From positions 1-64,000 of IMG/VR virus record IMGVR_UViG_3300024180_000002: a stretch of 64,000 nucleotides of DNA; one strand, written 5' to 3'. The position numbers and the translations under genes were made by a program. Below the pieces are notes generated by a model. It did no database searches. It saw only the letters and a program-made list of their open reading frames with translations, and had not been told where the DNA came from. The stretch is from a virus. How positions within the stretch are numbered: the first letter of the stretch is position 1; every line of letters begins with the position of its first letter. Of this stretch, positions 27,633 through 40,953 are shown piece by piece.

Positions 27633-29504
27633 TTACCAGCTAGCAGCCCATACAAATTCAAAGTTATGTTTCTTACAAAACTTTTCAATCATATCTGAAA
27701 CCTTAGCTTGAGCAGCTTCGTACTTAGCGTAATCTCTTCCATCTATAATATTATAAGCGCTTTCTCCATATTCATCAGGATGTCTTAATTCTCTTGGCTC
27801 GTCAGTCTTATAATAAACTTTCTTTTCAGCCGTTCTAATATAAGGCATTCTTAATTCTATTCTTCTATGTGCTTTTCTTCCGCTTGCCTTTGCGATGTCA
27901 TATTGCTTTTCGATTCTTGGCTTTAATCTAGTCCATTCGGCTAATATTTTATCATTAGCTTTAAAACCTGCTAGGATAGTTTTCATGTCAAATTCTACTC
28001 CGTTTACTCTTTTGTAATCTTTGAAAACTCCAACTACATCATCCATAAATTTATCAAAGCTAGAAATAGATTGATAAGAACCATGTACAGTTCCCATACC
28101 CCAATCATCTTCTACCTTTCCAGTTGATACTTTTTTGGTTCCATTGAATAATTTTGCAAATGAATAATTAGGTTTACGCGTTGAGTTGTTAGACTGAAAC
28201 TTAAATACTTCATGTTTCCATGATTTTCCTCGAAGCTCAATGCTCAAACATAAGTTACCTCCATAATTCCATTCTGATCTATAAACTCTACATTTGAATT
28301 GAATTTTTGGAAATTCCTTTTTTAAACGTTCAGCCATTTGTAAACCATTACCGAAGTTAGATTCTCTTTTGTATGCTTCTTTACATTCTTTAGATTTTCT
28401 AGCAATAGCTAAAACCTTACTTATTGTATAGTATGTTTCTGAATCGAATATTTCATCATCTGTTTCTTTATCTAAAATAACATCTTCATTAATAGATTTT
28501 AAATGAGTCAGTTTAGTGGATGTTGATTCTGCAAATGCTTCAATATCCCATTGGATTCTTTGCATTGGATCATCACCTCTAAAGTTTTTCTCAACCCAAT
28601 CAATAAGACCTGGTTCGAATTGGGCGTTTTGTGCCATATCATAGGCATTCTTCCAACCGTCGTTTGATGCAACGTCTTCTAACCATTGGTCATATTTCCT
28701 TTGAGTCCATCTTACTTTCTTAACAGCTTTCTTATGAGGACCAGCTCCTAATGTTGACTTTACAGTATTATAATGGTCTGGACCAGCAAATACGCCTTCT
28801 GCCCATTCTTGATCTCTTTTATTACCGTCCCAATATTTAATTTCTTTTCTGAATCTTCTTAGTGAATAATTACCACCTTCAATTTGTTTACGCTTTGTTA
28901 CTTCTCCTTGTCTGTAACCTATTTCAATCTTCTTTTCTTCGGCAGTTTTAGGATCCATTTCAAAATGTAAAGATTTTACTAAATCTGCAATACCGTCAAA
29001 CTTACCTTCATTAACCGATTCTAAAATAATAGAATTTAGCTTTACTTCTTTATTAAATCTAGCGCTGCGTACATCGTCAGTTACTTCTAACTTAACACCA
29101 TACATTGCAGTTAATTTTACCTTTACTTTTTTACCATTATGTTCTGCTTCAAATTCTTTAAATGCATTTGCCTGTCGGCCATAATCCGTAATTTCATAGT
29201 TTCCATCTTCTGTATCAAATATAGTACCGATGCTAATTTTATTAAGAACTCTTGCACCCATCATAGATATTTTAGAAGAAGATATTGTTTTACCTTCATC
29301 AAGTGATCCGAAAGATTCAAATGATATAATGTTTTTCATTTCGCGTTGTTTCTTTTTATTTCTCTTCTTCTTATACTCTTCTTCGGCATCTCCTTTTCCG
29401 GCTGGAATATCCCCTGATCCAACTGATGTTTCAGATGGTAAAGAGACTTCTCCCATTCCGGCCATATCGCCAAGTGATAAGTTTTCGTTTTCGTTTAATT
29501 CCAT
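27633..29504 (-). CDS. Putative packaged polyprotein with gp21-like cleavage sites
   Basis: This 623-residue protein opens with a low-complexity leader (GMGEVSLPSETSVGSGD, then EEEYKKKRNKKKQRE). This is followed by an internal CTS-like segment MKNIISFESFGSLDEGK with an LDE|G site at 68-71. More sites of the same type are VNE|G at 164-167 in ILESVNEGKFDG and INE|D at 338-341 in HLKSINEDV. The parts between are basic, mixed alpha/beta and unrecognised. The last part (about 430-623) is rich in Lys, Arg and aromatic residues and could bind nucleic acid. It is the final gene of the cassette, 3 nt after the 105-residue gene and followed by a strong terminator. Confidence 0.6.
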   Translation of the reverse strand: MELNENENLSLGDMAGMGEVSLPSETSVGSGDIPAGKGDAEEEYKKKRNKKKQREMKNIISFESFGSLDEGKTISSSKISMMGARVLNKISIGTIFDTEDGNYEITDYGRQANAFKEFEAEHNGKKVKVKLTAMYGVKLEVTDDVRSARFNKEVKLNSIILESVNEGKFDGIADLVKSLHFEMDPKTAEEKKIEIGYRQGEVTKRKQIEGGNYSLRRFRKEIKYWDGNKRDQEWAEGVFAGPDHYNTVKSTLGAGPHKKAVKKVRWTQRKYDQWLEDVASNDGWKNAYDMAQNAQFEPGLIDWVEKNFRGDDPMQRIQWDIEAFAESTSTKLTHLKSINEDVILDKETDDEIFDSETYYTISKVLAIARKSKECKEAYKRESNFGNGLQMAERLKKEFPKIQFKCRVYRSEWNYGGNLCLSIELRGKSWKHEVFKFQSNNSTRKPNYSFAKLFNGTKKVSTGKVEDDWGMGTVHGSYQSISSFDKFMDDVVGVFKDYKRVNGVEFDMKTILAGFKANDKILAEWTRLKPRIEKQYDIAKASGRKAHRRIELRMPYIRTAEKKVYYKTDEPRELRHPDEYGESAYNIIDGRDYAKYEAAQAKVSDMIEKFCKKHNFEFVWAASW

Positions 29505-29507
29505 ATC

Positions 29508-29825
29508 TTAATATTCAAATGGTGGAGTTCCATAATCATCTTGTTCGATGCCATACCATACTCCTGATACTTGTAAATACCACCATCCATATTTAGTGTC
29601 GTCTACTACTTTAAATTTCTTAGGTAATTTAACAGATTTTTTTGGAGCTCTAGCAATATACTTTAAAACTGGAACACCATCGTCCCATGTTTTTTTAGTA
29701 GATCTTGCTTGAACTGATTGTCCATCTGAAAACGCATCAAATGCTTTTGCATCTTCTATTTCATCTGCTAATAAATCGATAGCTGATTCATTAATGTATT
29801 GTTCAAATAATTTTACTTTTTTCAT
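29508..29825 (-). CDS. Small protein with CTS-like N-terminus
   Basis: This 105-residue protein begins MKKVKLFEQYINESAIDLLA, a near-ideal capsid-targeting peptide with a candidate INE|S cleavage site at 11-14. The mature part would be a small basic beta-rich domain ending KYGWWYLQVSGVWYGIEQ. It is probably an internal head protein cut by the phage protease. Start and stop lie 1-3 nt from its neighbours, so it belongs to the late cassette operon. Confidence 0.65.
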   Translation of the reverse strand: MKKVKLFEQYINESAIDLLADEIEDAKAFDAFSDGQSVQARSTKKTWDDGVPVLKYIARAPKKSVKLPKKFKVVDDTKYGWWYLQVSGVWYGIEQDDYGTPPFEY

Positions 29826-29826
29826 T

Positions 29827-31161
29827 TTACCAAACTATGTTTTTATTATCCCATTTAGCCATTCTTTGCTTAAGCTCTAGTGCTTTACGCTTAGCATCTC
29901 TCATATACCAAGAACTTGATGAACCGAATTTTTCTTCTTCAGTTTTCATATTAACGTATGCTGAAACATATCCTTGATAATCTGACAATATATTTGCAAT
30001 ATAATTGGTTAAATCTCTAGGTCTAATTTCTCTTCCTTTAGGGTCTTTTCCTATTGTTAATTCGTTATAGTTTCCTAATTCTTTTTTAGCTAAACCAGCC
30101 ATTAAGAATTGGTGTGCATCTTCGATAATTTCTTTAACTTTCTTGTCTATTTTATCTGGGTTATCAGCTTTCTTCGCAAGAATATCGTTATACCTTGTTA
30201 AGTTATCCTCTTTGATTTTCTTAGGGTTTGTAAGTGCAGTAGCTCCAGATTTTGCCTCTGCTCTTGCAGATGTCTTATCATCGGTAGATAAAGAAGCTCT
30301 TAATGTGTCTAAATTAATAATGTAACATTCGTCAGACATTTCCGCAATTCTTTTAATGTTACCTAATCCCGTTCCACTATATTGGTTGTGTGATTTGTTA
30401 ACACCGACAGTATCTTTAGATCCAGGGTATTTACCCATGTTCTTAAGTCTTCTTGTGTTTTTCTTACCACCTATTGTGTCGCTGTTTCTATTCCATATTG
30501 AATCGTTCTGAAACATTTCATTTTTTCCATTAGAAACAGCTAATAAACAATTTCCAGGAATCATTTCAACATATCTTCCGGAAGAAGGAGCATATTCATT
30601 TTCTTTTTCATTTCTAGAAATCCAAAATACAATTACGTTTCCGAATGTTTTTGCTTTCTTATAAACTTCAACTGGGTTGCTATTAGAAATTATCATATCA
30701 TCGGTAACTTTATCTAGTGCTACTTTAGCAAGACCGTATATACCTTTAATTAATTCCTTACCACCTTTTTTGATGTCTATTAATCCTCTTAACTTGGAAG
30801 AAGCTAGAGCTTCATTAAGTTCTAAAGATTCAGTTGCTCTGTATTTTGCAAATTTACCCTTTTTAATTGTTTTAACTAATTCAGCTTCGCTATCGTCCAT
30901 GTGACCATATACATCATTATGTGTTGCTGCGTTTACTATTTCACCAGCATCACCAATAAAATAAGTTCCTCCTGCATATTCGTCTCCATCCATATCTAGA
31001 TCAAAACCACCGGAATCTAATGAATTTTTAGAAATTGTGAATTCTTTTCCGTCTGCTTTTGAAAGAGCAGCTGCTAATTTTTTTGCTATTTTAGCAGTAT
31101 CTTTCTGCTTCATAACCTTTGCTTCATTGATAAAATTATCGAAGTTAGTATATAGTTTCAT
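29827..31161 (-). CDS. Putative packaged two-domain protein with CTS
   Basis: This 444-residue protein begins MKLYTNFDNFINEAKVM, with INE|A at 11-14, and contains a second site LNE|A at 115-118 in ESLELNEALASS. Cleavage at both would give a roughly 100-residue acidic domain and a basic C-terminal part of about 327 residues. The large part has SDECYIINLDTLRASL and a C-terminal Lys/Arg-rich helix. I do not recognise its fold. A late promoter candidate lies 24 nt upstream, so this gene starts the last late transcript of the cassette. Confidence 0.62.
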   Translation of the reverse strand: MKLYTNFDNFINEAKVMKQKDTAKIAKKLAAALSKADGKEFTISKNSLDSGGFDLDMDGDEYAGGTYFIGDAGEIVNAATHNDVYGHMDDSEAELVKTIKKGKFAKYRATESLELNEALASSKLRGLIDIKKGGKELIKGIYGLAKVALDKVTDDMIISNSNPVEVYKKAKTFGNVIVFWISRNEKENEYAPSSGRYVEMIPGNCLLAVSNGKNEMFQNDSIWNRNSDTIGGKKNTRRLKNMGKYPGSKDTVGVNKSHNQYSGTGLGNIKRIAEMSDECYIINLDTLRASLSTDDKTSARAEAKSGATALTNPKKIKEDNLTRYNDILAKKADNPDKIDKKVKEIIEDAHQFLMAGLAKKELGNYNELTIGKDPKGREIRPRDLTNYIANILSDYQGYVSAYVNMKTEEEKFGSSSSWYMRDAKRKALELKQRMAKWDNKNIVW

Positions 31162-31185
31162 TTTATATTGTTTTGTTTATAATAG

Positions 31186-31193
31186 TATATATC
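31186..31193 (-). promoter_or_regulatory. Late promoter candidate for the packaged-protein genes
   Basis: Minus strand reads TTAAAAGATATATACTATTA, 24 nt before the ATG at 31161. Confidence 0.6.
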
Positions 31194-31195
31194 TT

Positions 31196-34100
31196 TTAAT
31201 GTAAGGAATCATGTGCTAATTCATTAGCTAAGTCTGGATTATCATCTGTGAAATCTGATAATTCTTCGTCAGTCATTTCTTTTCCATTAGAATATTCACC
31301 ATAACTAAAGAATGCATCTGTGAAATCTGGATAATCTTTCATATCAACATCTTCCATTTCTAATGAACTAATATCTACTTTCTTTCCTTTAAATTTAATA
31401 TAATTAGCTTCGTTAATAAAAGATTCTAATGTTAAACTAACAACTGGTTTAATTCCAGTTAATATTCTTTTTCCAAATTTAGAAAGACCAATTCCATTTT
31501 CACTTACTGTAAAGTATTTAGAATTTCTTCTCATCCATCTTTTATTATCGATTGATTTTTCTTTTAGAATATTATTGAATTCTTCTTCTGTTAATACACC
31601 ATCCGCTAATGCCTCGATCATTGCGTTTCTGACTTTAGCAGTTCTACCTGAAGTTTGTGCAGGATGATTATCGGTATATCTTCTTTTTATTTGAATTTTA
31701 GATTCTCTAAGACCCGGTTTCATTACGTTTAATTCCCACCACTGTTCTAATTGGTGATAAATATTTGCACCCATGTTTGAAATCATGAAGTCAATTACAT
31801 CATCATAATTGTCTTTTTCATCTTGATAAAAACCAGGAGTATCGATATATTCTTTACCCATTATCTTTCTAACTGCTCTTTCTGGCATAGCATCGATTTC
31901 TTTTAAAAATTCTTCGAAATCTTCATCGTTTTTAAAACCCTTAGCTTCAATAACCATTGATTCCATTAGGCCAATAGCAATCTCTCCAACTTCTCTATCG
32001 CCGCCGTCAACATATCTTTTGTTAAGTATTGCAAATTTAAAACCATCTGCTTTTATCGTATACATTGGCATCATACTATCACTATAGTCGTATTTGTATT
32101 TACCTGCTTTTAATTCTTTACCGATTGCAAAGAAATCTTTAGCTTTACCTACTAAATCTGCAAGATTATCTAAGTGGTCACCGGCGTCGTCCTTTTCATT
32201 AACTAATGATTCATAAACTCCTTTTTCAATGTTCTTGATTAAGAGTTTAGCACCCTTCTTGTCAAGTTCATTTTGAATAAAGTCCATCATTTCGTTGGGA
32301 TCTTCAGCATCTATACCAAATTCAGATGCTAAGTTTTGATATGCATCAAATTCCATATTAGAAATAGTGTCTTCTAAGTCTGCATACACATCTTCATTAA
32401 CTGCTGATTCTACCATTACTAGCCCTATATCCTTATATGCTATTTCATGCTCTCCACCGTCTTGATCTAGTGCAAATACTGATTTATCATGCCACATTGC
32501 AGCATTGTCATCGTTATTAGAATCAGGATTATAAATGATATATTCTTTTCCGTTTCCGGTTTGAATCATTGCATCATCTGCATCTCCTAATTTTTTTAAT
32601 AATGACTTTTTAGTATACCTTTCTTCAACAGCTTCACCTGACGTATATTCAAAATCATTATATAGTGCCTTTAACCATTCTAAAAACTCTGGAGTTTTCT
32701 TCATTACTTTCTTATGTCCGTATTCTTTAAAGAATTCTTTCTGAAAAGTATCAAATGATTTGTGATTACCTATCATTTGGTGAATGTCAGACATAACACC
32801 CTCACTGATAACTAATTTTACATCTTTGTTTTTACCAGCTACTGCATCATCTAGTTCATTTGTAAGAGCTTTCTTTTTTGCTGTTAAATCTATTAGCTGC
32901 TGTCTAGTTGCTGCTTTCTCATCACTTCCATCTTCCGCAGCGATGTATATCTTTACAATATCTTTCATCTTATTAACTGTTTCTCCAAATTCCTTTGAAA
33001 TCTTGTTAATAGATCTAGCTTCTAATATATTAGATTCTTCAATGTATTCTCCTAATTCAGGATCGTCCCATCCATTAGGATCGGCTAATACTGATTGTAA
33101 ATCTTCTCTTGAACCTGTCATTTCAACTTCTGGCCAATTGCCACCAGGGCCGTTCATTGTTAAAACTTTCATTTTAACATTATATTTCTTTAAAAGCTTT
33201 TTGAGTGTTTTTGATTTAGGATCTATTGCATCCATTACTACAGTAGCTTCATTTAAATTTTCGTCTAGCTTATCAAAGAATCCACCATGTTCACTTTGTA
33301 AATCTTCACCATACTTGTCGTCCCATATTTTAGCTAATTCATCTTTAGTAATTTTACCTTTATATTTTCCCATGATTTCAACATAGACACTACCATATTC
33401 ATATTCAAAATCTTCACCATAAGAAAAATCCCATGCCTTTTCAACATCTTTAATTGTAAGCTTTTTGGCTTCAGTAACCTTTGATTCATACCATCCGTTT
33501 TCGTAATCGTCATCATCTTCATAATCATCATACTCAGGTTCTTGATACCATGATTGATTTGGATCAGATTCTGCTTCTTCAGTAAAGTCATGTCTTTTCC
33601 AATTAAATCTTGGATCTTCAACTAATGCAGGGAATAATGTCTTTTTCTTTTTATCTTTGGTCTTTATTTTACCGAATGCTAAATCAATACCAAGTTGTCT
33701 TAATTCTTTAAATGAACCTTTCATTGTTTTAACATCTTCTTCAGTATATCCATTCATTGTAGCAACAAGATCATAATAATCCATTCCACCAAATTCACCA
33801 TATCCTTCATAATCCTTTTCCGTCCACTTGTTACCCATATTATCATACATAAATACTGTAATCATGTTCTGTCTTTCAGAACCTATTTGTGTGTTTGTAT
33901 CGGATGTAAGCCATGAAAATTGACCTTCAACTATCATCTGTTCATGTAACAATTGAGCACCAGTCGTTACAATGTTTAAATAGCTTTCAGGAATTCCATT
34001 TACAAAGTTATGTAATTCTGGTTCGAAATCTGGCATACCACATGCATATCTTGGATATGTTGCTCCTTCTGTATTTACAAGAATACTCATTCCATAATAC

Positions 34101-34414
34101 TCTCCAAGCTCACCTGATTCAGTGTTACAATATAATACAAATACCTGTGGCACTTGAACTTTAAAGTTAGATTGTAATGGATATTCGTTATGACATCCTA
34201 ATTCTTTAGTAGTGTATACGTCTAAGGAATGTAATTCTTTATCATATTTAGTTAATTCTCTATATGGAATAGAAGCTCTTTGGTTAAATAGATCTCCCCA
34301 ATAAGAAGGCTTTCTCAAGGAATATTTCCCAGAAACCTTTTTGTATACTTTATATAAATCAACGTTTTCGTTCATTGAATTTACAAAGCTTTCGAATGTT
34401 TTTTTAGTGCTCAT
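31196..34414 (-). CDS. Putative packaged polyprotein with eight gp21-like cleavage sites
   Basis: This 1072-residue protein begins MSTKKTFESFVNSMNENV, a CTS-like start. Along it the motif [ILV]-x-E recurs, usually as ES-x-h-x-E, with the candidate cut after residues 315 (KVTE|A), 389 (NLNE|A), 465 (NILE|A), 538 (VISE|G), 674 (AVNE|D), 740 (LVNE|K), 823 (MVIE|A) and 1002 (FINE|A). The fragments would be 315, 74, 76, 73, 136, 66, 83, 179 and 70 residues, which is the size of single small domains. Residues 323-345 and 360-382 share a WDxxYGEDxxxExG repeat. None of the domains has a recognised function. The protein is acidic overall, as are T4 internal proteins before processing. Confidence 0.68.
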   Translation of the reverse strand: MSTKKTFESFVNSMNENVDLYKVYKKVSGKYSLRKPSYWGDLFNQRASIPYRELTKYDKELHSLDVYTTKELGCHNEYPLQSNFKVQVPQVFVLYCNTESGELGEYYGMSILVNTEGATYPRYACGMPDFEPELHNFVNGIPESYLNIVTTGAQLLHEQMIVEGQFSWLTSDTNTQIGSERQNMITVFMYDNMGNKWTEKDYEGYGEFGGMDYYDLVATMNGYTEEDVKTMKGSFKELRQLGIDLAFGKIKTKDKKKKTLFPALVEDPRFNWKRHDFTEEAESDPNQSWYQEPEYDDYEDDDDYENGWYESKVTEAKKLTIKDVEKAWDFSYGEDFEYEYGSVYVEIMGKYKGKITKDELAKIWDDKYGEDLQSEHGGFFDKLDENLNEATVVMDAIDPKSKTLKKLLKKYNVKMKVLTMNGPGGNWPEVEMTGSREDLQSVLADPNGWDDPELGEYIEESNILEARSINKISKEFGETVNKMKDIVKIYIAAEDGSDEKAATRQQLIDLTAKKKALTNELDDAVAGKNKDVKLVISEGVMSDIHQMIGNHKSFDTFQKEFFKEYGHKKVMKKTPEFLEWLKALYNDFEYTSGEAVEERYTKKSLLKKLGDADDAMIQTGNGKEYIIYNPDSNNDDNAAMWHDKSVFALDQDGGEHEIAYKDIGLVMVESAVNEDVYADLEDTISNMEFDAYQNLASEFGIDAEDPNEMMDFIQNELDKKGAKLLIKNIEKGVYESLVNEKDDAGDHLDNLADLVGKAKDFFAIGKELKAGKYKYDYSDSMMPMYTIKADGFKFAILNKRYVDGGDREVGEIAIGLMESMVIEAKGFKNDEDFEEFLKEIDAMPERAVRKIMGKEYIDTPGFYQDEKDNYDDVIDFMISNMGANIYHQLEQWWELNVMKPGLRESKIQIKRRYTDNHPAQTSGRTAKVRNAMIEALADGVLTEEEFNNILKEKSIDNKRWMRRNSKYFTVSENGIGLSKFGKRILTGIKPVVSLTLESFINEANYIKFKGKKVDISSLEMEDVDMKDYPDFTDAFFSYGEYSNGKEMTDEELSDFTDDNPDLANELAHDSLH

Positions 34415-34434
34415 TTTTATTTGTATTTGTTTAT

Positions 34435-35514
34435 TTAAACTCGGTTAGGCTTTATTTTATATTTAAATTTACCTTGTGTAATAGAATATATTTGTAATTC
34501 GCTAGTTTTTCCAGGTAATTTCTTGTAATAGTGAAAAGCTACTATTTCATGATCTTTAGACTCTATAAAAAGGAATGGAGTAGGTATATCTCCTACTGCT
34601 GAAATTACATCGTCTTGTATTTCAGTAAATGTTCTAACGGAAGGCTCAGTCTCTATTATACTTTTAATTTTTTCTGCAGTTTTAGAGTCACTTAGCTTTC
34701 CTAATTCTACGTCATTAAATTTAATTACTAATGCGCCGTTATCTTTATCTCCAGGACCTATTTTAAAATCTCTTTCACTAGAAGAAAGGGCCTGAATATC
34801 TGTCTTAGTTAAATTTTGAATATGCTTAAATCTTTTTCCACCTACAGTTCCCCATTCATTTATCCAACCTCCACCGGCAGCCATATCTTTACCATCTCCG
34901 TCCGGGTTGATTTCTTCAATATTATATTTTACTGCGTCATATAATGCCGTTAACTTCGGTACATAAGTACTATTAATTCCCTGGTGTTTTGCACCTGTTC
35001 TCCAATTTTGTAACATGCCCTTTGACATTTGAGCTTCTTTTAACTCACATTTACCAAGGGGTGGTTTAATTGGTGACCACCTTTCATTATATAATTCTAA
35101 GTCAGTATCGGCCGCACCTCCACCTATTTTTATATTTTCTACAATATACGCTAGCATTATTTCTCCAGCACCAATTCCATTATCGTCTCTTCCAATATTA
35201 AACAATTCGTTTGCTTCGCTTTTATTTAACATTAAATATTGAAAAACTACTCCGAATGTATCGTCATCCATTTTAGAAAGCCATAACCTACCATCAGGTT
35301 GTTGTTTAACATCCTGTGTTGAAGTAAACTTAACACCTTGCCATGGACACTTATTCTTTTTAAATGTTCTATTAATTGAATTAAATAAATTCTGTTGGGC
35401 AGATTTACTTCCGGTCGTTGCAACTCCAATATAGGATTCTATAATTAACGCTTCATTTTCAGCGTTGGTTTTTGCAGCACTATGTAGTGCTCTTTCAAAA
35501 TCGTACCTATCCAT
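34435..35514 (-). CDS. Unknown protein of the packaged cassette
   Basis: This 359-residue protein begins MDRYDFERALHSAAKTNAEN and has a candidate gp21-type site IIE|S at residues 24-27 (EALIIESYIG). The body is mixed alpha/beta with GIGAGEIMLAYIVENIKIGG and a beta-rich C-terminus (LFIESKDHEIVAFHYYKKL). I do not recognise the fold. The start overlaps the ligase/NMNAT gene by 8 nt and the stop lies 20 nt before the 1072-residue polyprotein gene. Confidence 0.55.
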   Translation of the reverse strand: MDRYDFERALHSAAKTNAENEALIIESYIGVATTGSKSAQQNLFNSINRTFKKNKCPWQGVKFTSTQDVKQQPDGRLWLSKMDDDTFGVVFQYLMLNKSEANELFNIGRDDNGIGAGEIMLAYIVENIKIGGGAADTDLELYNERWSPIKPPLGKCELKEAQMSKGMLQNWRTGAKHQGINSTYVPKLTALYDAVKYNIEEINPDGDGKDMAAGGGWINEWGTVGGKRFKHIQNLTKTDIQALSSSERDFKIGPGDKDNGALVIKFNDVELGKLSDSKTAEKIKSIIETEPSVRTFTEIQDDVISAVGDIPTPFLFIESKDHEIVAFHYYKKLPGKTSELQIYSITQGKFKYKIKPNRV

Positions 35515-37378
35515 TGTTTTCTAAAAATTGTTTAAATGTTAATAATGATTCAGCAACTTCATTTGATTCTGAAGTACCTACTGAATCTTCTAATTTTTTC
35601 TTAAGTTCGCCATACATTTTATGTAATGCTTTGGGTGTTGTTGACTTAAATAATCCTTCATCTCCGTCTAGCATTGCGTTTCTAACCTGAGTCGCTGAAA
35701 TATTATTGTCTGTTCTTGGAATTTCAAATAATCCAAAATCACTCCTAACTCCAAGATCTTCTCTATAAGAATCTTTATTTACTTGGAATCCGTAAGTTTT
35801 CATTCTATCGCTTCCTGTTCCCCATAATACGGGTTCATAAGTTGGTCTCATTGCATTGAACATTGTATCAATACCTCCGGTTGGAATTACAAAGATTTCT
35901 TTTAAAAATGGATATTGTTTTTGAACCGCCTTAAACATATCTAATTGTGTCTTCTCATCATAAGGTCTTTTAAATGCATCTTCCTTTTTCTTATTCTTTG
36001 CTTTTACTAATAAAACAACCACAGGATATCCATTTTCTTTGTGTATAGTTTCTAATACTTTAGCATGTCCAAGTGTAAATGGTTGGAATCTACCAACAAA
36101 CATATTTACTAATTCTCCTCCTTGTTCAGGATGATCTACTTTAAGTGCTTCATTTAAATTAACACTTGTCTTTACTTTATTATGTAATATGAAATTATTA
36201 AAGTCGTATATGGAATTTTCATCGGTATTCTCTACAAATACTTTCTTATCTATAGTTTCTACTATTTGATTTAAATGCTCTAACATTTCTGCATTTATGA
36301 TATCGCTTTCCTTGCTTCTCTTTTTTCTAAAAGAACCTAAAGTTATTTTAAATAATTCTGCAAGTATTTCGTTTTCAACATAAGAAAGAGTGGTCTCGTT
36401 CTTAATGTATTTAGTATTTAGTTTAAAGGAATCTGAATCTGCAAAATCAGCTGATTCAAAGTTAACACCAATAAACTTAGCAGAGTGTTCTTTAACATAC
36501 GTATTAAACATCACTGACATTAATTCAATATATCTCCAGTCTGCTGTTTCTTCATTTAGTTGAATGTCTTTCATTTCAAATGTAGAAATAAATTCAATAA
36601 GACCAGCAATAGTAATTTGATACATGTGGCTTGATCTCTTATTTTCACTAACAGTTCTTGTAAAATCTTCTAATTTAAAAGATCTAGATTTTTTCTCATC
36701 AATAAAAGAAACTATTAATCCGTCAATTTCTACTTCAAAGTCTTCATTTAACGTAGGAGAAACTGCATTTGGATTAAATGTCTTAATCATCTTTTGAGTG
36801 AAAGGTAATCTTGCATCTGTATTTGGATCATAATCAAATGCTTCAGAAAACTCCTTATCTGACATAGATAAAACACTTATTAATTCTTCTTTTTGCATTT
36901 GAGATAGCATACCATCAAACACAATGCTAGGTCCTTGAACCTCTAATATCTTTGCCCATTTATTTAATATAATTGGATCGCTAATTGTTTTTCTAATCTT
37001 ACCTGACTCATTCATAGTTTGAATGTGCGTAAGTATTAAATTGTTTTTAGGTAGTTTAGTATATTTATATTCTGACACGTTTAATTCAGGTAAATATTCA
37101 AAACCAAATTTCCAATCATGTGGCATTTGTTCCTTTATACTAGGATCTAAACTTTGGATGTGCTTGACACCTGTTTCATATAAACCTACTATTGTTCTGT
37201 CTATCATGTTCATTCTAGAATCTCCAGATTTGTAATATTCAAATTTAGTCTGGTTTCTTCTAACGTGAAATGAAGCTCCTTGTATTTTTTCAGTTACTAG
37301 AACCCTGCTATTCAACATATCTTGAAATGCATTGATATTAGTTTCCTGAAATACTTGTCTTAGTTTTTTAAGTGCCAT
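35507..37378 (-). CDS. Ligase-type nucleotidyltransferase fused to NMNAT-like domain
   Basis: This 623-residue protein has two enzyme domains. Residues 1-300 look like an RNA/DNA ligase-family nucleotidyltransferase, with motif I TEKIQG (Lys31), a motif III-like WKFGFEYLPE near 89 and motif IV VEIDGLIVSF near 216. Residues 425-600 are a nucleotidyltransferase of the NMNAT/cytidylyltransferase fold, with GRFQPFTLGH at 429-438 and ISATQVR at 560-566. Between them lies VNLNEALKVDHPEQGG, a gp21-like LNE|A site (408-411) that would free the NMNAT part. The C-terminus ESLLTFKQFLENNG resembles a capsid-targeting peptide. Substrates (NAD, RNA ends) are inferred from folds only. Confidence 0.75.
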   Translation of the reverse strand: MALKKLRQVFQETNINAFQDMLNSRVLVTEKIQGASFHVRRNQTKFEYYKSGDSRMNMIDRTIVGLYETGVKHIQSLDPSIKEQMPHDWKFGFEYLPELNVSEYKYTKLPKNNLILTHIQTMNESGKIRKTISDPIILNKWAKILEVQGPSIVFDGMLSQMQKEELISVLSMSDKEFSEAFDYDPNTDARLPFTQKMIKTFNPNAVSPTLNEDFEVEIDGLIVSFIDEKKSRSFKLEDFTRTVSENKRSSHMYQITIAGLIEFISTFEMKDIQLNEETADWRYIELMSVMFNTYVKEHSAKFIGVNFESADFADSDSFKLNTKYIKNETTLSYVENEILAELFKITLGSFRKKRSKESDIINAEMLEHLNQIVETIDKKVFVENTDENSIYDFNNFILHNKVKTSVNLNEALKVDHPEQGGELVNMFVGRFQPFTLGHAKVLETIHKENGYPVVVLLVKAKNKKKEDAFKRPYDEKTQLDMFKAVQKQYPFLKEIFVIPTGGIDTMFNAMRPTYEPVLWGTGSDRMKTYGFQVNKDSYREDLGVRSDFGLFEIPRTDNNISATQVRNAMLDGDEGLFKSTTPKALHKMYGELKKKLEDSVGTSESNEVAESLLTFKQFLENNG

Positions 37379-37388
37379 ATTATATTAT

Positions 37389-38759
37389 TTATCTTCCGTA
37401 CTTTATGATTCCCATCAGCTGATTGATAGCAGCAAAAGTACCTGTTAGTTTCATAGTCTTTCCTTTATATACAAAAACTATTCCTTCAGTTGGTATGATA
37501 GATTCTACTCCTCCAATTCTATCTAATCTCTCTAGTTCTTTCATTACCTTTTCGATCTGAGTAACGCTTCCATCTTTTTTGATCTTTTCAGATTCTGATC
37601 TAATTTGATTATGTAGTCTTTGCATCTCTTTGTCTGGATTTGCAGCTACAAAATTAGAAGCATTCATAAGAATTATAGACCCTAGTTCTAAAAATAAATC
37701 TTCAAACGGTCTAATGTTTTCTTTATATTTCTTTTTAACATCTTCTTTGTCAAATTTCTTAACAGAAGCAGCTTCATCTTTTCCTATCTCCTTTGCAAGT
37801 GATCTCATATTTAAAGACTTTTTATCTCCATAAGCCCATCTTAATAATAAACCTTCCTTATAGTCTTGTTGTAAATCTGGGAAATTTGCATCTATTGTTT
37901 CTCTCCACCACATTTCATGATATCTAGAAACTTCGTCACCGTCTGTTAAGTTATAACGATCTCTTAATTTTTCAATCTGCTTTATAAATTTAGCTTGATT
38001 TTTATCAAAATTAATATCTTTACCTAGTTTTAAAATCTGAGGAGGAATTATTGTAAATGTCTTTTGAACATCGGCATCTACTTCCTTTAAAGCTTTGACT
38101 AATTCTCCTGCTATTTTTCTAGATCCTGTAATATTACCATTCCCATCAGTTTCTTGAATATCGTGAAATTGAAGAACATCTCTTTCGTAATAGATTACAT
38201 TTGGGTTTTTAGAATAGATTAATTCTATATTTATAAAATCTTTACCGTCATTAAATATGGACTGATCTTTAATTTTTGGAAGAGCTTCATTTAGATCTTT
38301 AGCTGCAAACACGTATGTTTCTCGCACTAAAGGTACCTCATGCTTTTCAAACATTTCTATAATACCGTCTAAATCAACGGGACTAATTAATTGACCTTTA
38401 TTTCTAGAAAACATCGTAACTCCGTTTTTTACGGTTGCTAATAGATTTTGACCGTCTGTTTTTTCAGTGGCTACCTCTTCAAAGTTTAATTCTCCTTGAA
38501 GACCGGACGTTACGATCTTTTTAAAATCTGCGAATGTTAAATCTTTTTCATCGAAAGGATGAGACATGTGACCAGCTGCACCGCCTTCTAAGATTAATTC
38601 TTCTTTAAGTGTATTGTATTTTTCAACGATATATTCGTCAAATGATAAAACTTTACTCTTATTTTCACTCATATAATGTGCAACATATTCCTCTCTGGTC
38701 ATGCCTTGTGCATCTGCGTGATGTTGAATAAAATCTACAAAGTTGTTATTTAGTTCCAT
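37389..38759 (-). CDS. KxDG-type ligase-family nucleotidyltransferase with cleavable N-terminus
   Basis: This 456-residue protein has motif I EKTDG (Lys100 as likely nucleotidylated residue), a motif III-like INIELIYSK, motif IV EGLLLRW and motif V EGIVFVYKGK near 425-434 followed by KLTG. This is the RNA/DNA ligase superfamily core. The N-terminus holds a CTS-like stretch VLSFDEYIVEKYNTLKEE and a strong gp21-like site LILE|GG at 55-60. The mature enzyme would start GGAAGHMSHPF. An in-frame Met30 could be an alternative start. It lies upstream of the ligase/NMNAT gene with a 10-nt gap, so the two ligase-type enzymes are made together. Confidence 0.75.
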   Translation of the reverse strand: MELNNNFVDFIQHHADAQGMTREEYVAHYMSENKSKVLSFDEYIVEKYNTLKEELILEGGAAGHMSHPFDEKDLTFADFKKIVTSGLQGELNFEEVATEKTDGQNLLATVKNGVTMFSRNKGQLISPVDLDGIIEMFEKHEVPLVRETYVFAAKDLNEALPKIKDQSIFNDGKDFINIELIYSKNPNVIYYERDVLQFHDIQETDGNGNITGSRKIAGELVKALKEVDADVQKTFTIIPPQILKLGKDINFDKNQAKFIKQIEKLRDRYNLTDGDEVSRYHEMWWRETIDANFPDLQQDYKEGLLLRWAYGDKKSLNMRSLAKEIGKDEAASVKKFDKEDVKKKYKENIRPFEDLFLELGSIILMNASNFVAANPDKEMQRLHNQIRSESEKIKKDGSVTQIEKVMKELERLDRIGGVESIIPTEGIVFVYKGKTMKLTGTFAAINQLMGIIKYGR

Positions 38760-38778
38760 GTATATAGCTAATATAATT

Positions 38779-38808
38779 AAAAAACTTGACCCGGAAAAAT
38801 CCAGGTCA
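38779..38808 (-). terminator. Rho-independent terminator
   Basis: An 8-bp stem (TGACCTGG with CCGGGTCA, one G-U pair) and a 6-nt loop are followed on the minus strand by a T-run (AGTTTTTTAATT). It lies after the 708-residue gene. Confidence 0.8.
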
Positions 38809-38826
38809 GTTTATTTTTATTTTTTA

Positions 38827-40953
38827 TTATAAATATCTATCGATAAATTCTTCTTTGCTACCAACAAATGATCTAGTCTTTGGGCCGAAAAGAACAATCT
38901 CAGCACCTTCTGATTTAAGCCAATCTGCAACTTTTTGAGCTTTTTTCTTATCAGCTGATAACCATACTGTGTCAAATTCAGGACCATGAGACCTTTGCAT
39001 TACAATACCTCCTTTTTCATTTGTAAATTTAAACTTATCTCCAAGAGCAACACTTACTTTAATATTTTTATCAAAATTCTTTTTATGATTCTTAAAAGAA
39101 TATGCTAAAGCACCTGAGTAACTTTTAGTGTCAGTTGTAAATTCATCTAAAGATGTAGTAGTACCTTCATAAATATTTGATTCAAATGCTGGAACTAATC
39201 CAGTTTCTCCGTAGATATCTGCCATCATCCATTTTTTAGAACCTTCATCCCATAAATAAACGAATTCTGCACCACCTTCGTAATTTGCATCTTTAATATA
39301 TTTGTTAATATTCTTAACATTACCTTTCATCAGATTAACATCTCCGCCATAGAAATTAATTTTCTTAACGTCTTTATCTAAACCTGAATTATCTCCATTT
39401 TTAAGAACAAAATCTACATTTTTACCACTTTTAAAGGTTGATTTAATAATAGGCAACATGTTTTCAGGATATGAATCATAGTGAGTATATACTGAAGTAA
39501 TATTTCCTTTCTTGTCTATTTTACCAAATTGACCTCTAGTTCCTTCATTAATTACATAATTGATTACTTCGTTAAATTTAGATTCTTTTAAAGAAATTTC
39601 TTCTTCAGTTAATTGAAACTTAACTGATTCTTCTACTGCGTTAAATCCTGCTAATAATTTTTCAGCAAGTTTAGATTCACCAATAGATTCTAAATATAGA
39701 GCAGTGCCTTCAGCAACTCCAATACCTGACCATCCGGCAGCATTTGAAATTCTAGAATAATACTCATCTAATATCTGTGATATTTTCTTTGCTCCTACTA
39801 TAATAGCTTGTTTACCAAGAGTTAAAGGATTAACAGTAACACTTCCTAATCTTCCTTTGATAATTTTTTCAGTAGCTGTTCTTTCTCTATGGAAATTAGC
39901 ATCAGTTAATGCTTCAGCGTAAATATATTTAATAGCTCCTAAGTGAGAAATTTTATCAGCTGTTAAGCTTCCTAGTTCTGCAAATATTTTATTGTATTGA
40001 GTTAATACTTTCTTTGCATCTCTTTTATATTTAATATCTAAGGCCTCATTCATTAATGATTCTCCTAATCCCCAGTAATTTGCGTGATCGTATTCAACTG
40101 GGAATATACCTAAATCACCTTCATCACCTTCTTCACTTTTAACAATTTTAGCAAGATAGTAATCTCCCTTTGCAGTATCTTCATATCCGTATGAATCTGC
40201 ATCTGATCCCATTTCTTTTTTAAATTGCTTTGATATCTTTCTCCAATTATCGATAGCGATTATTTCAACTTCGCTTCCAATTGAATTTTCAGTAGTATCT
40301 CCTACTTTAAATTTAGCTTTTTCAGTAACTAAAGATTCTGAAAATTCTTCAATATGTTCCATATCGATTTCATCTTCTCCCTTTAATTCTTTTTGTACTT
40401 CTTTAGACTTTACTAATTTTGAAAGATCTTTCATAGTGATTTCTCCATCAATGAAGTCAGCTAGTATATAGTATTGATTAGAAGAATATCCTTCACTGTC
40501 TCTAAAATCACCAATTTCTTCAATTGCTGCTTTAGTAACGGTCTTAGCTTCAGTAACTAAAGATTCGCTTAATGAATTTCTTAGACCACAGTGTACGCAT
40601 TCTACCGTTCCGTCCTTGTCAATTTGCTTATATAAATGTCCTTTTTTATTAGTACACTTTGGTTCGTCTGATTCAGTAACTTCTTCTGATGCAGTAACAT
40701 CTTCTACCTCTACTTCTATTTCAGCTATTTCTTCTTCTGAAACATCTCCAAATATTTTTGAGATAATTGATTCTTTCTGATCTTCTTCTAAACCTTCGAA
40801 AGAAGTTAATCCTAATTCATCTAGAATAGCAGCTATTTTACCAACTGATTCTTGTCTTTTTAAATTGTTTTCTTCTCTAAGTTTACTAACAGATTCCTGT
40901 TTTCTAATCTCTGTAAACGATTTAAATGAAGAAATTTTATTAACTTGTGCCAT
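38827..40953 (-). CDS. Putative packaged polyprotein with five gp21-like cleavage sites
   Basis: This 708-residue protein starts MAQVNKISSFKSFTEIRKQE, a CTS-like opening. Candidate cleavage sites lie after residues 135 (SLVTE|A), 211 (SLVTE|K), 303 (SLMNE|A), 470 (YVINE|G) and 596 (NIYE|G). The first fragment has an acidic tract and a possible zinc ribbon (Cys100, Cys119, Cys122). The fragment 304-470 is helical. The C-terminal piece includes VSVALGDKFKFTNEKGGIVM and a basic end. The ES-x-h-x-E-A context is the same as in the 1072-residue protein, so the two probably share a modular origin. A late promoter lies 34 nt upstream and a terminator 19 nt downstream. Confidence 0.65.
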   Translation of the reverse strand: MAQVNKISSFKSFTEIRKQESVSKLREENNLKRQESVGKIAAILDELGLTSFEGLEEDQKESIISKIFGDVSEEEIAEIEVEVEDVTASEEVTESDEPKCTNKKGHLYKQIDKDGTVECVHCGLRNSLSESLVTEAKTVTKAAIEEIGDFRDSEGYSSNQYYILADFIDGEITMKDLSKLVKSKEVQKELKGEDEIDMEHIEEFSESLVTEKAKFKVGDTTENSIGSEVEIIAIDNWRKISKQFKKEMGSDADSYGYEDTAKGDYYLAKIVKSEEGDEGDLGIFPVEYDHANYWGLGESLMNEALDIKYKRDAKKVLTQYNKIFAELGSLTADKISHLGAIKYIYAEALTDANFHRERTATEKIIKGRLGSVTVNPLTLGKQAIIVGAKKISQILDEYYSRISNAAGWSGIGVAEGTALYLESIGESKLAEKLLAGFNAVEESVKFQLTEEEISLKESKFNEVINYVINEGTRGQFGKIDKKGNITSVYTHYDSYPENMLPIIKSTFKSGKNVDFVLKNGDNSGLDKDVKKINFYGGDVNLMKGNVKNINKYIKDANYEGGAEFVYLWDEGSKKWMMADIYGETGLVPAFESNIYEGTTTSLDEFTTDTKSYSGALAYSFKNHKKNFDKNIKVSVALGDKFKFTNEKGGIVMQRSHGPEFDTVWLSADKKKAQKVADWLKSEGAEIVLFGPKTRSFVGSKEEFIDRYL

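Follow-up and report, generated by a model that had tools for sequence, protein, structure and literature searches.

Predicted head-targeted, cleavable polyproteins with exchangeable modules in an uncultured T4-like phage

In phage T4, the internal proteins IPI-III and Alt carry a short N-terminal leader that ends in a Glu cleavage site and is processed by gp21 (PMC9026906, PMC3012670). The locus described here raises the question of whether a T4-like phage may use such leaders and sites to load polyproteins into its head. The window analysed comprises 64,000 nucleotides, positions 1 to 64,000 of the IMG/VR record IMGVR_UViG_3300024180_000002. The record is 133 kb long and comes from an uncultured T4-like phage, for which there is also a near-identical contig of 179 kb.

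The cassette and its leader

Positions 27633-40953 are filled by eight minus-strand genes encoding proteins of 105-1072 aa, which confirms the preliminary description of an eight-gene, 13.3-kb cassette. The same phage encodes a gp21 homologue (Peptidase_S77, 7.8e-10), adjoined by the gene for a gp67-position core protein, and a gp23 capsid protein (Gp23, 6.2e-45). The cassette had also been called late, a label that we could not support because the T4-type late promoter TATAAATA, a promoter type that may not apply to this phage, lies upstream of few genes and of none at the cassette. Searches of Pfam and PHROG for recognised effector domains (ART, peptidase, primase, ParB-like and others) gave no match in the cassette, and among isolates the 708-aa and 1072-aa proteins (P708 and P1072) have no homologue except for one weak match to a single module. 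A SAR324 MAG contig with a portal gene was considered as a clue to the host; it has neither a capsid gene nor a match to P1072, its following genes are bacterial, and it looks like an assembly chimera, so it is uninformative on this point.

The leader has the general pattern M-K-x(2-4)-[FY]-x-x-[FY]-[IVL]-[NT]-E, as in MKKVKLFEQYINES, and in its sequence form it corresponds to the capsid targeting sequence of T4. Its clear form, MK..xF..[FY].NE, stands at the annotated N-terminus of three of the eight proteins (1072, 444 and 105 aa). The 708-aa protein has a degenerate copy; the 456-aa protein and the last 623-aa protein carry the leader internally, the 623-aa protein with an NMNAT-like domain carries it at the C-terminus, and the 359-aa protein shows none. 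The statement that most of the genes carry it at the N-terminus thus holds only if displaced copies are counted. A loose regular expression for the leader matched 23 proteins genome-wide, compared with 10.4±2.9 (maximum 21) after shuffling; its concentration in the cassette was not significant (3/8 genes, p=0.05), the expression being too permissive. Leader proteins are dispersed across the genome, and some adjoin non-head genes. Across relatives, the same kind of leader is found on the gp67-position core protein and on a 461-aa protein beside the capsid gene, and module copies that are encoded alone start directly behind a leader. Four members of the cassette are as follows, a slash marking the predicted cut here and below.

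34435-35514, minus strand: 359-aa protein without a clear leader or site
29827-31161, minus strand: 444-aa protein, leader MKLYTNFDNFINE/A at 31123-31161
30811-30831, minus strand: candidate site ESLELNE/A in the 444-aa protein, where the relative L123 has additional modules inserted
29508-29825, minus strand: 105-aa single-module protein, leader MKKVKLFEQYINE/S at 29787-29825; its module belongs to family F43, which is last in the polyproteins of relatives
27633-29504, minus strand: last 623-aa protein, containing in order the next three elements and module F46
29409-29459, minus strand: capsid-protein-like element GMGEVSLPSETSVGSGD
29295-29339, minus strand: internal leader MKNIISFESFGSLDE
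29007-29036, minus strand: candidate site ILESVNE/G, ahead of module F46

Predicted cleavage sites and module exchange

The sites predicted in the two largest proteins are listed below. Those in P1072 are each based on the motif, on relatives and on AF2 models, and P708 was compared with its AF2 model and with relatives in which the modules are re-ordered.

38827-40953, minus strand: P708, degenerate leader MAQVNKISSFKSFTE at 40909-40953
40549-40566, minus strand: predicted site ESLVTE/A (aa 130-135), low pLDDT around it
40321-40338, minus strand: predicted site ESLVTE/K (aa 206-211), at an alignment edge in relatives
40045-40062, minus strand: predicted site ESLMNE/A (aa 298-303), a confident domain beginning directly after it
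39568-39585, minus strand: predicted site ESKFNE/V (aa 457-462), in a low-confidence gap separating two confident domains
39166-39183, minus strand: predicted site ESNIYE/G (aa 591-596), where pLDDT drops
31196-34414, minus strand: P1072, leader MSTKKTFESFVNSMNE at 34367-34414, compared with relatives and its AF2 model
33470-33487, minus strand: predicted site ESKVTE/A in P1072
33020-33037, minus strand: predicted site ESNILE/A in P1072
32393-32410, minus strand: predicted site ESAVNE/D in P1072
32195-32212, minus strand: predicted site ESLVNE/K in P1072
31946-31963, minus strand: predicted site ESMVIE/A in P1072
31409-31426, minus strand: predicted site ESFINE/A in P1072

In the AF2 models of P708 and P1072, which are partly of low confidence (mean pLDDT 64 and 59), most sites lie in, or edge, low-confidence linkers between confident domains. 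A further match in P708, ESKLAE (aa 426-431; 39661-39678, minus strand), was rejected as probably due to chance because it lies inside a confident helical domain. A fold search of both models against the PDB returned nothing at E≤0.001. The P708 fold is partly like that of a small uncharacterised phage protein in BFVD (9.4e-5), one P708 module resembles PHROG 1987, and modules of P1072 show, by E-value, a weak resemblance to YgdR-like and KH-like small folds.

The preliminary description had proposed that the site motif would exceed chance in the cassette, and it does. The pattern [ILVM]xE[AGSDK] occurs 54 times, compared with 31.7±5.0 after shuffling, and 327 times in the rest of the proteome, compared with 288±17. 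The narrower pattern ES.[VILM].E occurs 11 times in the cassette, where 0.5±0.7 remain after shuffling, whereas the 5 occurrences elsewhere show no enrichment over 4.5; the densities are 2.51 and 0.10 per 1000 aa, a difference of about 25-fold. Among the spacings between ES and the final E, only that of three residues is enriched. The further claim of polyproteins with many sites holds mainly for the 708-aa and 1072-aa proteins.

The sites of relatives give the consensus ESVV[NT]E/A. Among 184 sites in 49 non-redundant relatives, N or T (150/184) and A (109/184) predominate at positions that the search had left free, and V or I (167/184) at one that it had fixed only partly. An exact scan for the 21-nt linker, which is independent of homology, found it in at least 120 stretches, and all of the matches (160/160) fell in the ESVV[NT]EA frame. 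The linker fits the T4 cleavage consensus L/I-x-E (PMC9026906), although this consensus is borrowed from T4 and may differ from the specificity of the S77 protease of this phage. Conservation of the linker at the DNA level exceeds what codon usage accounts for. A dyad in the linker DNA, TCAGTA-GT-TACTGA, was treated as incidental because the N variants break it without compensation.

The modules between sites have a median length of 95 aa, many are acidic, and they are shuffled across genes and phages with alignment breakpoints that coincide with the sites. In the 49 non-redundant relatives, 116 of 590 breakpoints fall within 6 aa of a site (39.5±5.4 expected), and a breakpoint lies no more than 10 aa from 141 of the 184 sites. 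Family F5 alone is found in seven left and seven right neighbour contexts, and recent swaps are seen as modules with 91-93% nucleotide identity between different genes whose flanks are at aligner background. Module families were clustered at 70% reciprocal coverage; single-linkage clustering, which merged most modules because unrecognised sites leave multi-module pieces, was replaced. Since the same short linker bounds every module, modules can be gained, lost and swapped in frame.

Enzyme-like proteins

Two further members of the cassette have features of enzymes.

37389-38759, minus strand: 456-aa protein with an invariant KxDG...EG...K, nucleotidyltransferase-like by motif only
38622-38654, minus strand: internal leader KVLSFDEYIVE of the 456-aa protein, N-terminal in most relatives
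38580-38597, minus strand: predicted site LILE/GG in the 456-aa protein
35507-37378, minus strand: two-domain 623-aa protein, ligase-like N part and NMNAT-like C part
36146-36157, minus strand: junction LNE/A between the two parts
36065-36094, minus strand: NMNAT-like motif GRFQPFTLGH
35510-35545, minus strand: C-terminal leader-like tail LLTFKQFLENNG, T-[FY]-x-x-[FY] being kept in relatives

In 21 homologues of the 456-aa protein, down to about 31-33% identity, E/GG is invariant, and so, across these homologues, are K100, D102, G103, E425, G426 and K437, the residues compared with motifs I (KxDG/KxNG), IV (EG) and V (K) of the RNA/DNA ligase superfamily. In the N part of the two-domain protein, ligase motif I is degenerate (consensus EKI.AS). 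Neither the 456-aa family nor this N part matched a ligase profile in Pfam or the PDB, and the two ligase-type nucleotidyltransferases proposed earlier, recognisable by short motifs, are putative. The NMNAT-like domain, on the other hand, was borne out at the sequence level: it matches Pfam CTP_transf_like over the cut-off (8.8e-9), carries the GRFQP..xGH and ISxTxxR motifs, and has NMNAT/Nudix as its best PDB match (0.0023). At the junction, 18 non-redundant relatives keep [LIVM]-x-E/[AG] (E in 17/18, A or G in 17/18) while the upstream flank diverges. The NMNAT-like domain is preceded by SPITE/A within a fusion and by FINE/A of a leader when it is encoded alone.

Cleaved cargo, rival readings and known systems

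Taken together, the S77 protease, the gp23 capsid protein, the shared leader and the site-bounded, shuffled modules favour the earlier proposal of head targeting, gp21-type cleavage and polyprotein character. It is quite probable, on these sequence features, that the cassette encodes head-targeted cargo polyproteins that the prohead protease cuts into many small proteins. The leader would take each polypeptide into the prohead core. There the phage's gp21-type (S77) protease would cut behind the final Glu of the leader and of each internal ES-V-V-[NT]-E/A linker, so that one polypeptide may yield a number of small folded proteins, separate from one another, within the head. Like T4 IPs and Alt, these would presumably be injected together with the DNA and could act on the host; delivery may serve to counter host defence or to repair NAD or RNA, as had been suggested. 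The linkers may also act as, or remain from, short DNA homologies at recombination junctions. We regard as evenly balanced the extended proposal that these are combinatorial cargo polyproteins, a leader followed by up to ~15 exchangeable effector modules, in which the 21-nt joint is both protease site and recombination joint and the injected set is reshuffled at the pace that a defence arms race demands.

Points that count against the cleaved-cargo reading are the genes that lack a clear N-terminal leader, one of them showing no leader at all, the near absence of isolate homologues of P708 and P1072, the partly low-confidence models and the many acidic modules. Domain shuffling as such can be explained without cleavage. 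Intact multidomain polyvalent proteins could be packaged and injected with ESVV[NT]EA as an uncut flexible linker or recombination joint; packaged multidomain effectors with shuffled domains are already known (PMC5512222), and linker DNA conserved beyond codon usage requires no protease. We nevertheless consider this unlikely, because the linker matches the T4 L/I-x-E consensus (PMC9026906), because leader end and linker are interchangeable before the NMNAT-like domain, and because the two-domain junction retains only [LIVM]xE[AG] upstream, which would be needless in a plain linker. Another reading takes the polyproteins as scaffold or core building blocks and not as cargo, to be cut up and lost from the head as T4 gp22, gp67 and gp68 are. 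It is improbable: modules of 60-200 aa, several of them predicted to be well folded, and an NMNAT-like enzyme domain speak against it, and a fast turnover of content between related phages is ill-suited to a structural core, even though the gp67-position protein shares the leader, proteolysis of the T4 core proteins yields many fragments, most of which do not stay in the head, and acidic modules are numerous. The dispersal of leader proteins over the genome, some beside non-head genes, would suit routing by leader and linker to another destination, such as the baseplate or a compartment inside the cell, and a different protease. Since the gp67-position core protein and the capsid-adjacent protein have the leader too, and the cleavage consensus fits the S77 family, this is a very remote prospect.

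The proposed head-targeted cargo is best described as a variant of the T4 internal proteins that overlaps with polyvalent proteins. As in T4 IPs and Alt, a conserved short leader with a terminal Glu site fronts diverse small payloads in a genome that also encodes a gp21-family protease and a gp23 capsid protein. In T4, however, each polypeptide carries one payload and is trimmed at the N-terminus (Alt also at the C-terminus), whereas one polypeptide of the present type appears to yield up to ~15 products, with modules exchanged at the sites, and many modules are acidic, unlike the basic T4 IPs. Polyvalent proteins are likewise large, fast-evolving and multidomain, with a mosaic order, and are thought to be delivered with the DNA; they were defined by known enzymatic and DNA-binding domains and, in the part of PMC5512222 used here, are not split by prohead-protease sites, whereas the present modules are small and mostly without an assigned function, joined by a uniform predicted-cleavable linker and preceded by a head-entry leader. 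In phiKZ and SPN3US, head and ejection proteins are also substrates of gp21-like proteases, cut after Glu, and a single propeptide may hold several sites (PMC10052503). In SPN3US, however, all sites found, except for the protease's own, remove N-terminal propeptides, and no precursor is reported to release several separate mature cargo modules (PMC10052503). Phage NadM/NadR share an NMNAT-like HIGH-superfamily adenylyltransferase domain, which here is fused via a predicted cleavage site to a ligase-like domain rather than to Nudix or a kinase (PMC9503650).

If confirmed, the cassette would represent a modular route for loading many proteins into a virus head, and, if true, it would extend the repertoire of dsDNA phages by a polyprotein strategy, with which many small proteins can be delivered by means of few head-entry signals. 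The modules would form a list of candidates for host takeover or anti-defence, and further cases could be found with the linker as an exact signature. The head contents of T4-like phages would become a testable question in uncultured lineages. The arrangement may also offer a natural design for packing several proteins into phage heads.

Phage setting and position of the cassette

The phage is T4-like by its gene content. The parent virus record of the window comprises 133,305 bases. A contig nearly identical to it (G001; 178,737 bases) was also read over its full extent; genes in this contig and in the loci of relatives are simple longest-ORF calls. It encodes a portal, a DNA end protector, an SbcCD-like nuclease, DnaB-like and UvsW-like helicases, a UvsX-like recombinase, a UvsY-like mediator, a single-strand DNA binding protein, a split DNA polymerase and ribonucleotide reductase. 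The portal, whose nearest annotated relatives are in huge uncultured phages, Sphingomonas phage PAU and Lak phages, is followed on its 3' side by a protein in the gp67 position, a Peptidase_S77 (gp21-family) protease and the Gp23 capsid protein. The protease and an extended acidic region make up a single chain of 686 aa. At locus L011 (12050-14110) one reading frame joins it to a long, acidic and repeat-rich stretch that looks like a scaffold, a gp21-gp22-like fusion. Locus L236 (CAJJCY010000001.1, a SAR324 MAG) was set aside: its portal-to-protease stretch (97%) lies at a contig end and is followed by bacterial-looking genes, so that it looks like an assembly chimera.

27633-40953, minus strand: the eight genes of the cassette
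L011 14266-15705: gene of the gp23-like capsid protein

The cassette is located in the recombination region, away from the head genes, and the order gp32, primase-like, UvsY, UvsW, cassette is kept in about 20 relatives. The preliminary description had proposed that the cassette is enriched for a cleavage-type motif, which was confirmed: the cassette has 11 instances of ES.[VILM].E versus 0.5±0.7 in shuffled sequence, and the remaining proteome has 5 versus 4.5. No enrichment was found at other ES-to-E spacings. The NMNAT-like domain proposed there is likewise supported. The ligase-type assignment is not: ligase motif residues are invariant throughout the family of the 456-aa protein, yet no profile match was found for this family or for the ligase-like part of the 623-aa protein. 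Among the isolates of the phage collection, we found no relatives of the two polyproteins (708 and 1072 aa), save one weak single-module match.

Sites, modules and linker DNA

The predicted sites have the consensus ESVV[NT]E/A (184 sites, 49 non-redundant relatives; slash, predicted cut), in which the N/T and A preferences are at positions left free by the search pattern; the predicted cleavage specificity is carried over from T4. The pieces between sites (modules; median 95 aa) form 47 families with at least two members by reciprocal-coverage clustering, in varying order and in different genes. Local-alignment ends lie within 6 aa of a site in 116 of 590 cases versus 39.5±5.4 for shifted sites; the breakpoints are in part from related sequences and thus not wholly independent of one another. 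Two AF2 models place most sites within or beside low-confidence linkers that separate confident domains. For some modules, copies in different gene types share 91-93% DNA identity (e.g. F21 in L188 and L190, F5 in L209 and L123), while their flanks are at about 0.70-0.75, the level that the gapped aligner seems to yield for unrelated sequence; this difference points to recent exchange of modules between genes.

The linker DNA is kept beyond codon usage, with a modal-codon fraction of 0.818 versus 0.647±0.015 (n=80, one site per left-module family). The second Val is GTT in 54 of 55, and DNA identity falls to background immediately outside the linker. A scan of IMG/VR for the exact 21-nt pattern, made without use of protein homology, returned at least 120 stretches. 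Among the matches listed, all 160 examined are in the ESVV[NT]EA frame and represent 115 distinct proteins, of which 83 have at least two sites and one, of 1315 aa, has the maximum of 14. Shared recent origin through recombination, or selection on DNA, would explain this conservation. In relatives the linker DNA reads GAATC(A/T)GTAGTTA(C/A)(T/C)GAAGC; the T variant holds the dyad TCAGTA-GT-TACTGA, which is broken in other variants.

In open-licence PMC papers we found no description of a prohead protease that cuts a cargo polyprotein; an earlier one elsewhere is possible. T4 core proteins cleaved into multiple fragments, phiKZ/SPN3US propeptides with multiple sites, and polyvalent proteins are known from the literature.

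Leader sequences and their relation to the linker

The leader that the preliminary description attributed to cassette genes was borne out in part: it is clearly N-terminal in three, whereas it is degenerate in one, internal in two, C-terminal in one and not seen in one. Further leader-bearing proteins are scattered elsewhere in the genome. The gp67-position protein, placed between portal and protease as is T4 gene 67, begins MKHLKTFKNY, MKHVKLFEEFLSEEA or the like in relatives, and a 461-aa protein adjoining the capsid gene begins MKTFEQWY. In T4, the leader sends proteins to the core, and gp21 cleaves after L/I-x-E (PMC9026906). Because these two proteins start with such a leader, it is probably a head-entry signal, and may act here as in T4.

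Similar elements were seen in other contexts. A leader-like tail, T-[FY]-x-x-[FY], forms the C-terminus of the ligase-like/NMNAT-like protein (35510-35545) and of its relatives. Leader-like starts are present in the phage's ATP-dependent DNA ligase (L093 14421-15713; 430 aa, DNA_ligase_A_M; MKELKLTQEFVNES) and in a 317-aa protein that matches ATP-grasp weakly (L086 12205-13158; MKQIQSFNQFINES). A GMGxVxLP...GSGD element (29409-29459) lies near the beginning of the 623-aa protein encoded at 27633-29504 in the cassette. It recurs in about 30 proteins of relatives and, in the N-terminal region, in the gp23-like capsid protein of this phage; it is possibly a second capsid-association signal, through mimicry of the capsid protein.

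Leader and linker appear to be the same kind of element, since polyprotein modules also stand alone behind a leader. The 105-aa gene of the window belongs to family F43, and for F22, F42, F45 and F46 there are copies, stand-alone or short, that carry a leader. Most relatives link the ligase-like domain to the NMNAT-like one via ...[LIVM]xE/[AG]; at locus L204 the two are separate genes, of which that for the NMNAT-like domain starts MKHIKLFEQFINE/A and that for the ligase-like part keeps the leader-like tail at its C-terminus. Homologues of the 456-aa protein vary in the leader region, but all 21 keep E/GG where the mature protein is predicted to begin; the set extends to a 462-kb phage and, at 33% identity, a Microcystis phage. 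At its matching locus beside UvsW, the 462-kb phage has shorter, single-leader proteins, which suggests that the polyproteins arose through fusion.
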